A stretch of DNA of 64,000 nt, taken from Pelagibacteraceae bacterium AG-325-J13. Its GTDB lineage: Bacteria > Pseudomonadota > Alphaproteobacteria > Pelagibacterales > Pelagibacteraceae. The stretch is from positions 62,001 to 126,000 of the forward strand of contig QBYL01000001.1 of NCBI GenBank assembly GCA_003282835.1, read 5' to 3'. Below, one piece after another: positions 31,173-62,824 of the stretch. Position numbers and translations under genes: made by a program. Numbering within the stretch: the stretch's first letter is position 1; each line of letters opens with the position of its first letter. Under the pieces are notes generated by a model that was not told the origin of the DNA, did no database searches, and saw only the letters and a list, made by a program, of their open reading frames with translations.

Positions 31173-31310
31173 TTATTTTTCTTTCCAAAACAGAATTCCT
31201 GTGCCAATTCCGATAGCTATTGCTGAAACAACCCAAGCATATTCTTGATCACTGTAAAGCAAAACCCCACCACAAATAACAATGATTATTCCTAATGTTT
31301 TGTTGCTCAT
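31173..31310 (-). CDS. 45-residue membrane protein
   Basis: A short frame beginning MSNKTLGIIIVICGGVLLYS and ending WKEK, with two hydrophobic helices (about 5-19 and 24-41). An in-frame ATG at 31364 would extend it by 18 polar residues, but the ATG at 31310 gives the cleaner protein. It precedes the oxidoreductase gene by 17 bases. No function is known and I see no strong ribosome site. Confidence 0.45.
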   Translation of the reverse strand: MSNKTLGIIIVICGGVLLYSDQEYAWVVSAIAIGIGTGILFWKEK

Positions 31311-31322
31311 GTTAAACTTTTG

Positions 31323-31440
31323 TTGACAAACCGTATTCACACATAATAAAGTTAGAATATCCATATGTCATGGAAAAAAAGACTCTGCATCTACATGCAG
31401 GACTCTATAAGGAGTTAAAAAGTAGGTTGAAAGAAAGGAG
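31323..31440 (+). promoter_or_regulatory. Promoter and structured leader of the 63-residue gene
   Basis: A consensus -35 TTGACA at 31323-31328 precedes weaker -10 candidates around 31344-31351. The leader then holds a perfect stem-loop CTGCAT/ATGCAG (31385-31390 and 31395-31400, loop CTAC) flanked by two GACTCT copies (31381-31386, 31401-31406). It ends in AAAGGAG (31434-31440), one of the strongest ribosome sites in the window. A 17-codon frame (ATG at 31366) overlaps the stem-loop. Confidence 0.5.
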
Positions 31441-31445
31441 ATGTG

Positions 31446-31637
31446 ATGGACAGATTTTCACGTTTGCTTGGTGAGTTCAGCCGAAAAAAGTCAGAAGCTA
31501 AACTTACTCAGCAACTTAACAAATCTTCGAAAGCACCAGAGGCAAATGCCAATGGAACAAGTGGATATTTGATTAAGGAAGGAAAAAATGCAGGTAAAGT
31601 GCTTAAGCATTTAAAAACCGACAAAAATAAAATTTAA
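31446..31637 (+). CDS. Small soluble protein of unknown function (63 residues)
   Basis: Starts MDRFSRLLGEFSRKKSEAKL at the ATG 31446, 5 bases after AAAGGAG; the GTG directly before it is an unlikely start. The chain is charged, has an amphipathic N-terminal helix, a neutral middle (PEANANGTSGYLI) and a lysine-rich end. No membrane segment or family is recognised. It is a stand-alone unit with its own promoter signals, strong ribosome site and intrinsic terminator, a layout rare in this genome and typical of a well-expressed gene. Confidence 0.75.
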   Translation: MDRFSRLLGEFSRKKSEAKLTQQLNKSSKAPEANANGTSGYLIKEGKNAGKVLKHLKTDKNKI

Positions 31638-31646
31638 TCTTTATAG

Positions 31647-31670
31647 AGAGGGGTTTCAAAACCCCTCTTT
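31647..31670 (+). terminator. Intrinsic terminator after the 63-residue gene
   Basis: AGAGGGG (31647-31653) and CCCCTCT (31662-31668) form a 7-bp GC-rich stem, which A/T pairs may extend towards the loop TTTCAAAA, followed by TTT. It lies 10 bases after the stop and 21 bases before rlmN. It is one of only two clear intrinsic terminators in the window. Confidence 0.85.
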
Positions 31671-31690
31671 AACTATTAATAATCTCATAG

Positions 31691-32782
31691 ATGAAAAAAC
31701 AAAACTTCTATGATCTGAACTTTGAGCAGCTTAAAGCATTTTTAATCGACAATGCTAAGGTAGATCGTAAAAAAGCTAAAATGCGTTCTCAACAACTTTT
31801 TAATGCTGTTTATAAAAAAAACATAAAAAGTTTTGATGAACTTACTACGTTTGGAGTAGAGTTAAAAAATAAAATAAAAGATTTAATTAGTCTAGAAAAA
31901 CCAAAAATTGTTGATATTCAAAAATCTAAAGATGGAACAATAAAATTTCTTTTAGAATTAAAAGATAAAAGAAACGTCGAAACTGTTCTTATTCCAGACA
32001 AAACACACAGCAGATATACGATTTGTTTATCTGTGTCCGTAGGATGTTATCTTTCATGTGAATTTTGTGCGACTGCTCAAATTTCAAAAAAACTTGTAAG
32101 AAATTTATCTCCTGGAGAAATTATTTCACAGATCATTTTAAGTAAAGATTACATTAATGATTGGTCAACTCAAAAAAAAATCACTAATCAAGTTTTAATG
32201 GGTGAGGGATCTCCTTTTTTAAATTTAGATAACGTTAAAATTGCTATAGATAATTCAAAAAATAAAGATGGTTTAGATTACGGCAGGACAAGAATAACTG
32301 TAAGTACTGTCGGCGTTAGTATAAAAAAAGATAGTATTGATGCAATTGAATGGGCTGCAAAAGAATTAGATGTTTATTTAGCTTGGAGTTTACATAGTTC
32401 GATTCCAAAACATAGGTCAGAGTTAATGCCTATTAATGAAAAATATTCAATTAATTTATTGATACCACAACTAAAAAAATATTATGAAAAAACAAAATTG
32501 CCAATTTTTATTGAATGGATTTGTTTAGAGGAAAATATGACAAATGAGCATGCTAAAGAACTAATAAAGATCATGAAAAAAGTTCCCTCAAAATTAAATC
32601 TAATAGAATTTAATCCGCTAGCAAATAAAAAATACAAACCTGCGTCACAAGAAAATATAGATAAGTTTTCAAAAACTATTCAAGACAATGGGTTTTTATC
32701 TTTATTCAGAAGAAGCAGAGGGAGAGACATTAATGCATCTTGTGGATCGCTAGCTAATAAGAAAGCTATTGCTAATGAATAA
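31691..32782 (+). CDS. rlmN: 23S rRNA/tRNA A-C2 methyltransferase RlmN
   Basis: A 363-residue radical-SAM enzyme methylating C2 of A2503 in 23S rRNA and A37 in some tRNAs. The Fe-S motif C119-x3-C123-x2-C126 (CYLSCEFCATAQ) is intact, and the second catalytic cysteine is in NASCGSL near the C-terminus. MGEGSPFLN and LAWSLHS match RlmN motifs. The last 14 bases overlap the next gene. Confidence 0.94.
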   Translation: MKKQNFYDLNFEQLKAFLIDNAKVDRKKAKMRSQQLFNAVYKKNIKSFDELTTFGVELKNKIKDLISLEKPKIVDIQKSKDGTIKFLLELKDKRNVETVLIPDKTHSRYTICLSVSVGCYLSCEFCATAQISKKLVRNLSPGEIISQIILSKDYINDWSTQKKITNQVLMGEGSPFLNLDNVKIAIDNSKNKDGLDYGRTRITVSTVGVSIKKDSIDAIEWAAKELDVYLAWSLHSSIPKHRSELMPINEKYSINLLIPQLKKYYEKTKLPIFIEWICLEENMTNEHAKELIKIMKKVPSKLNLIEFNPLANKKYKPASQENIDKFSKTIQDNGFLSLFRRSRGRDINASCGSLANKKAIANE

Positions 32783-57786: not shown

Positions 57787-57792
57787 CCTATT

Positions 57793-57882
57793 GAGGTTGG
57801 CATCAGGTGGATGTTTCATAAACCCGGTCAGGTCTGAAAAGAAGCAGCCGTAGTGAAAACTATTCAGGTTGTTGCCTGCCTC
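57793..57882 (+). ncRNA. ffs: Signal recognition particle RNA (4.5S-like)
   Basis: About 90 bases: the 5' GAGG (57793-57796) pairs with the 3' CCTC (57879-57882). The conserved domain IV is GGTCAGGTC, loop, GAAGCAGCC (57827-57849). Here the tetraloop is GAAA closed by U-A (57835-57840), in place of the more common GGAA closed by C-G; it is still a GNRA loop. Its position directly before dnaX is conserved in alphaproteobacteria. It binds Ffh for membrane protein targeting. Confidence 0.9.
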
Positions 57883-57888
57883 TTATAA

Positions 57889-62645: not shown

Positions 62646-62790
62646 TCTTACCCCATCTGTATTGGTACCTGAGAGATTTACTCCTTCGGTGAGATTTTAT
62701 CTCTTTCCAGAATTTTTTTTTTCGGTCCTTTTGCCTGAGAGTTTCCGGGGTGGTTGCTCCTTCGGCGCTATAATTAAATAGTCTCTCCCG
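62646..62790 (-). promoter_or_regulatory. Tandem glycine riboswitch controlling malate synthase
   Basis: On the minus strand, aptamer I (62790 down to 62723) contains GCCGAAGGAGCAA and CTCTCAGGCAAAAGGACCG. Aptamer II (62710 down to 62657) contains CACCGAAGGAGTAA and TCTCTCAGGTACCAATACAG; both are the conserved gcvT-type cores. An 8-bp inverted repeat GTACCAAT/ATTGGTAC (62668-62661 with 62646-62639) joins the end of aptamer II to the start codon region, and could block translation without glycine. A glycine-activated riboswitch on malate synthase has been published for SAR11. Confidence 0.93.
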
Positions 62791-62824
62791 TAATTACGTT
62801 TATACTGAACTATGAGCAATTTAA

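Follow-up and report, generated by a model that had tools for sequence, protein, structure and literature searches.

The small protein gene examined here, which lies in a 64,000-nucleotide window of a Pelagibacterales genome (G000, contig C1, positions 62001-126000), is preceded by a leader (31360-31426) composed of two tandem H-type pseudoknots, a design that emerged from the alignment of leaders across SAR11 genera. We consider this leader, with moderate confidence, to be a candidate glutamine-sensing riboswitch controlling a small effector of nitrogen status. The interpretation draws on comparative sequence analysis and on analogy with known switches, and there is a strong case, by guilt by exchange, that this uncatalogued leader senses glutamine and drives a small protein shared by hosts and phages. 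Small proteins under riboswitch control are already known; the tandem-pseudoknot leader appears to be new to the catalogues.

The features of the locus are collected in Table 1. The gene is flanked by a divergent membrane-protein-like ORF on one side and by rlmN on the other. The consensus -35 box, the 63-residue ORF and the very strong ribosome-binding site described by the original prediction are all found at the locus, and the -35 hexamer is invariant in 24 aligned rows. Its GC-rich terminator fared less well: the 3' hairpin is present and is kept with compensatory changes, but at least five T within 8 bases after the stem occur at only 2 of 68 loci, and the terminator scan made no call there. 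Given this poor T-tract and the silence of the scan, the existence of a true intrinsic terminator downstream of the gene is doubtful.

Table 1. Features of the small protein gene and its leader (window coordinates).
Feature	Position	Strand	Remarks
Promoter-like sequence	-35 TTGACA 31323-31328; best -10-like TAAAGT 31347-31352	+	18 nt spacing; scan 10/12
Hairpin P1	TCCAT 31360-31364 / ATGGA 31370-31374	+	outer pair T-A, A-T or C-G in 39/47 distinct cores; other combinations in 8
Pseudoknot 1	loop GTC 31367-31369 with GAC 31381-31383	+	over A-rich linker
Hairpin P2	CTGCAT/ATGCAG, loop CTAC, 31385-31400	+	compensatory changes in window clade and other families
Pseudoknot 2	loop CTAC 31391-31394 with GTAG 31422-31425	+	complementary in 47/47 cores
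Hairpin P3	ACTCT/GGAGT 31402-31415	+	inside pseudoknot 2; window's clade only
Shine-Dalgarno AAAGGAG	31434-31440	+	8 nt past last pseudoknot strand; conserved
Small protein gene	ATG 31446 to stop 31637	+	63 aa, basic; phrog_32989 family; conserved NGTxxYxIKxGxNxGK
3' hairpin	31644-31671	+	GC-rich, weak T-tract; ~20 nt upstream of rlmN

Homologs do exist in SAR11, with relatives of the small protein encoded at 67 Pelagibacteraceae loci (one of them, L027, with an altered C-terminus). The dN/dS of the window protein against 11 relatives is 0.075-0.27, and its conservation indicates that the gene is real, maintained in SAR11 and under purifying selection. The protein had been assigned to no known family, which remains correct for Pfam and NCBIfam, where a search with the window protein returned no family. 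It is nevertheless a member of phrog_32989, whose profile matches it with an E-value of 8.2e-8 (residues 6-54, profile positions 5-54 of 54) and one of its relatives with an E-value down to 8.5e-13, and relatives are found in pelagiphages and many viral contigs. The phrog_32989 entry takes in the small protein and, as listed, carries no function, host members, RNA leader or riboswitch link. A Pfam search with 15 members of the small-protein family gave only weak unrelated matches (best E-value 0.022) and no DUF4278. AlphaFold2 modeled a helix at residues 3-27 and a short strand pair (pLDDT 74, pTM 0.39). Assigning a function from the fold was rejected, as Foldseek returned 0 matches of the model in PDB and a PDB sequence search gave E-values of 0.41 or worse.

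The two units of the leader share one design, in which a hairpin loop pairs with a strand located just downstream, spanning an A-rich linker. The CTGCAT/ATGCAG stem described by the original prediction is present, but only as one helix (P2) of this larger structure. Likewise, the GACTCT repeats occur in two copies but do not form an independent motif: the first copy contains the GAC strand of pseudoknot 1, the second contains the 5' arm of P3, and both are confined to the window's clade, P3 itself being missing from short-form leaders. In 47 distinct cores, gathered by a search pattern in which most of P1 and the permitted partner letters of pseudoknot 2 were fixed but complementarity was not demanded, the strands of pseudoknot 1 were complementary in every case (47/47), in the versions GTC/GAC, CAC/GTG and CTC/GAG. 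Pseudoknot 2 occurs in the cores as CTAC/GTAG, CGAC/GTCG, TCGC/GCGA or CGC/GCG, and elsewhere as GCC/GGC in genus g4 and GTAC/GTAC in family f10. On the opposite strand of 31385-31400, P2 and the A-run form a terminator-like site facing the divergent membrane-protein-like ORF.

Conservation of the stem by covariation is borne out by the compensatory changes in P2 and extends to the whole architecture. In 21 short-form leaders, a set that includes lineages found afterwards with a pseudoknot-blind model and in which one identical pair of rows was counted once, 99.4% of 330 cells were paired, against 17-38% in slid controls, and 7 of 17 pairs had changed on both sides, four of them inside the two pseudoknots. 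These alignments indicate that the leader is a real, uncatalogued, covarying structured RNA preceding the gene. It gave no match in Rfam, even at permissive thresholds. The model of the type-1 glutamine riboswitch (glnA motif, RF01739) found nothing in the window leader at gathering score, nor at E-values up to 5 in 31300-31720, and the Downstream-peptide model (RF01704) gave no score above its cut-off. A known riboswitch was therefore rejected as the identity of the leader, the low-scoring Rfam matches in 31542-31708 being chance hits to sRNA families. Elsewhere in the window, a glycine riboswitch (62713-62800, minus strand) and an SRP RNA (57792-57886, plus strand) are the sole Rfam matches at gathering score, and a tRNA and tmRNA search within the window returned none.

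A covariance model built from 15 leaders, all of the short form, identified 41 places in 40 of 247 Pelagibacterales genomes. In 33 of them the leader lies directly upstream of the small-protein family (as matched by eye to protein hits), and in two it precedes a different, 48-codon ORF (G021 and G024, genus g4). The remaining six, with 30.6-31.7 bits, were judged to be chance matches and dropped; five precede ribBA (genus g2), one is a second match in G109, and they lack P2 or fall within coding sequence. The long-form leader of the window itself scores 27.4 bits, under these six dropped matches, because the model was made from short forms only, and 13 further genomes with long-form leaders, mostly missed by the model, were counted from fetched loci. 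Among 385 genomes of the class, the model found the two g4 genomes and three of f10, a small-genome alphaproteobacterial family outside SAR11. In the latter (L272-L274), the tandem pseudoknot stands before a third ORF of ~40 codons with ..RVWD..ENRWG.., for which no family was found. Leader and gene also occur together on five viral contig stretches, and since two of these (L243 and L244) carry T4-type helicase, primase, terminase, gp32 or UvsX genes, the leader truly occurs in phages, judging by gene content. Viral scans for leaders of the window type and of the genus-g5 type recovered 0 contigs each. The original prediction of regulated expression from a structured leader was thus an understatement, the covarying tandem pseudoknot being found in several SAR11 genera, in another family and in phages.

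The protein was found in more genomes than the leader. Its profile was found in 174 of the 247 Pelagibacterales genomes and in 3 of 385 genomes of the class sample, all three Pelagibacterales. The 174 SAR11 genomes comprise 46 with the tandem pseudoknot, 2 with RF01739 and 126 in which neither was detected. On the viral side, 178 stretches matched the protein, of which 80 were retained. Isolate phages with weak tblastn matches were nearly always pelagiphages (20/21, 25/26 and 24/25 records, the remainder each time being an uncultured phage), and the pelagiphages with relatives span several unrelated types. The copy of HTVC008M (L079, 18229-18360) is unannotated; its N-terminal part is encoded in a different frame, close to an A6 run.

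The evidence bearing on the ligand is the exchange of this leader with glutamine riboswitches in front of the same genes. RF01739 was detected in 2 of the 247 SAR11 genomes (G044 and G169, loci L209 and L210; 60.2 bits, cut-off 35), which are related and belong to one genus, in both cases immediately before the small gene. It also stands immediately before the gene in 15 viral relatives out of 80; nine come from the 50 whole contigs, with one match apiece, and six from the 30 loci. The tandem pseudoknot precedes 2 of these 80, no locus carries both RNAs, and 63 have neither. The reverse view started from 80 viral loci, taken from at least 120 stretches with the glutamine-riboswitch pattern, some contigs overlapping with the protein-based set. 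Among the matches listed, the small-protein family lies within 400 nt of the riboswitch at 19 of these 80 loci, 7 loci being short of downstream sequence, and a second phage family (~50 codons, ..SRPR..KN.. in most) is found at 10 of the 80. The profile of this second family recognizes the 48-residue g4 proteins encoded under the tandem pseudoknot (E-values 1.3e-10 and 2.2e-8, the best of 5000 shuffles being 0.033), with a reverse search at 1.2e-11 and an hhalign probability of 97%. Because phrog_32989 proteins and this family shared by g4 and phages each occur under both RNAs, two unrelated protein families are, to judge from their leaders, swapped between two RNA classes. The small ORF of f10 gave no match to the riboswitch-linked phage families (best E-value 0.65), and among other riboswitch-linked viral ORFs the likeness to DUF4278 stayed under its cut-off.

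SAR11 may have taken the small protein over from phages, where it would serve in host takeover or be associated with the virion, and its link to nitrogen may be incidental; we regard this scenario, which is compatible with a riboswitch reading of the RNA, as possible but unlikely. Relatives are widespread in pelagiphages amid late, lysis or packaging genes, and some SAR11 copies adjoin tmRNA as they do in viral contigs. At L214 (1151-1795), a two-piece tmRNA is followed by leader and gene and then by a duplicate tmRNA 3' end; other g5 loci have such a tmRNA 3' end after the gene, and on two viral contigs a tmRNA whose tag is likewise ANESYALAA directly precedes it. These flanking pieces, seen in genus g5 and in viral contigs (L161 and L198 are among the loci concerned), suggest exchange or integration at ssrA. 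Weighing against an incidental link to nitrogen, glutamine riboswitches stand before the 15 viral copies mentioned above, and both leader classes are found before host copies. Many of the g5 genomes fetched (L201-L237, mostly of that genus) also encode a phage-like form of the protein, which directly follows an IscA/ErpA-like gene and is preceded by other sequence, with GCATATC..TGCATATC repeats; some of the protein matches include an in-frame TAA. Among the 126 genomes in which neither leader was detected, most of the low-scoring ones fetched from g5 carry such a phage-like form in a different setting.

Among the several SAM and preQ1 classes, riboswitches that replace one another upstream of shared genes bound a common ligand. 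Because such alternating classes usually answer one signal and the glnA aptamer binds glutamine, glutamine is the signal that we favor for the tandem pseudoknot. Weighing against this reading are the narrow SAR11 side of the exchange with RF01739 (two related genomes of one genus), the 126 SAR11 genomes and 63 viral relatives in which neither RNA was detected, the f10 ORF without a riboswitch-linked match and the presence of the protein irrespective of PII. In addition, the tandem pseudoknot has no recognizable sequence in common with the glutamine aptamer, and a gene that is elsewhere under a glutamine riboswitch could answer a second nitrogen signal. The leader would then sense 2-oxoglutarate, ammonium status, another amino acid or a nucleotide, and complement the glutamine switch of other lineages. 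Leader classes before one gene indeed need a common physiological signal rather than a common ligand; yet the SAM and preQ1 precedents, together with the recurrence of the same exchange in two separate protein families, make a signal other than glutamine improbable. Recognition of the leader by a protein, whether a host factor or the small product itself (autoregulation in the style of ribosomal-protein leaders), seems more improbable still. The product is small and basic, and short helices with simple loops could form a protein site, but the same RNA architecture precedes three unrelated small proteins, and two of these are encoded downstream of glutamine riboswitches at other loci; simple autoregulation is disfavored since the RNA would have to follow one protein. 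Lastly, an ordinary, highly expressed small gene with stabilizing hairpins or a leader peptide and no sensing has in its favor a good promoter, a good ribosome site and a leader folding energy with a z-score of just -1.80 (12 of 200 shuffles equally stable, by a program that does not model pseudoknots), but is very hard to reconcile with two-sided covariation in both pseudoknots across deep divergence, with a leader retained in unrelated neighborhoods and phages, and with an upstream frame that is not conserved. The upstream frame from ATG 31370 spans 34 codons in the window, against 17 codons for the one proposed over the hairpin; across 68 loci the ATG was matched in 67, the frame from it measures 11-90 codons and can have any of the three phases with respect to the gene, and a leader peptide was rejected because neither frame nor length is conserved.

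Returning to the glutamine-sensing reading, we infer ligand, direction of control and expression platform as follows. The leader would sense glutamine, and thereby nitrogen sufficiency, in cis, and would control translation of the small protein through the adjoining Shine-Dalgarno site, a mode that suits it because the last pseudoknot strand ends so close to that site. If the leader behaves like type-1 glutamine riboswitches, glutamine would switch the gene on, and a sufficient nitrogen supply would lead to synthesis of the product. This small basic effector may tune nitrogen assimilation under plentiful glutamine, and the likeliest way is by attaching to glutamine synthetase or a partner, in the manner of cyanobacterial IF17. 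The target is speculative, if plausible: none of the 40 genomes examined for GlnE has it, 21 of 38 lack PII, and given these absences and the riboswitch-driven small proteins of cyanobacteria, glutamine synthetase is a reasonable one. An anticorrelation of the small protein with PII was rejected, the protein being present in 14 of 21 genomes without PII and 9 of 17 with it.

Several known systems resemble parts of this arrangement. Like the leader described here, RF01739 lies 5' of short ORFs; it precedes both protein families in phages and the small-protein family in two SAR11 genomes, but it consists of one aptamer with conserved GACGGAAGUAG..GAAGGAACG, whereas the tandem pseudoknots have other conserved letters. 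According to PMC6316151, glutamine is the ligand of the glnA and Downstream-peptide aptamers, the small proteins under their control include IF17, and DUF4278 is a domain known from cyanobacterial glutamine riboswitches. The Downstream-peptide motif, or type-2 glutamine riboswitch (RF01704), likewise precedes small ORFs in marine bacteria, which encode about 17-100 aa and have no known function (PMC2864571), but it is described as restricted to picocyanobacteria (PMC6316151), and our leader has no Rfam match. The glutamine synthetase inactivating factors IF7 and IF17 are small proteins made under rich nitrogen, IF17 via a glutamine riboswitch (PMC7760959 and PMC6316151). By analogy, these factors and DUF4278 proteins would share with the window family small size and a proposed nitrogen-rich expression, but the window family has no Pfam match and no detectable kinship with IF7/IF17. 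SAM-II, SAM-V and further H-type pseudoknot riboswitches of SAR11 are likewise short and lie near the ribosome site in these organisms (PMC2704228); the present leader differs in lacking an Rfam match and in being associated with small ORFs and not with sulfur genes. The RS05825 motif of SAR11 strain HIMB5, with three hairpins and an internal loop in P2, was set apart on the description given in PMC6429828. In the portions available of the literature on glutamine riboswitches or noncoding RNA with SAR11, Pelagibacter or phage, nothing was found on this leader or its exchange.

SAR11 are the most abundant bacteria of the ocean. With a new RNA sensor whose ligand can be named, the sensing of nitrogen sufficiency in SAR11 lacking PII and GlnE would become directly testable. 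The leader is probably a nitrogen sensor common to host and phage, and the same switch with the same small proteins in phages suggests that hosts and viruses trade in RNA-based nitrogen control. A bolder and tentative proposal, which we hold to be possible rather than probable, is that tandem H-type pseudoknots constitute a third class of glutamine riboswitch, which takes the place of the glnA type in SAR11 and in T4-like marine phages and governs tiny nitrogen effectors shared by host and phage. These effectors would regulate the glutamine synthetase of SAR11, and phages would carry switch-effector cassettes, partly moved via the tmRNA locus, with which to direct the nitrogen flux of the host while infecting it.

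The viral glutamine riboswitches at L276-L355 are mostly followed by small ORFs (about 28-65 codons) of several unrelated families, including many short W-C-motif ORFs. Riboswitch and small ORFs in marine viral contigs look like a general phage small-protein program. In phage Melnitz (L275, 1570-1670), a 32-codon unannotated ORF lies on the plus strand downstream of the glutamine riboswitch, with the annotated feature on the opposite strand.
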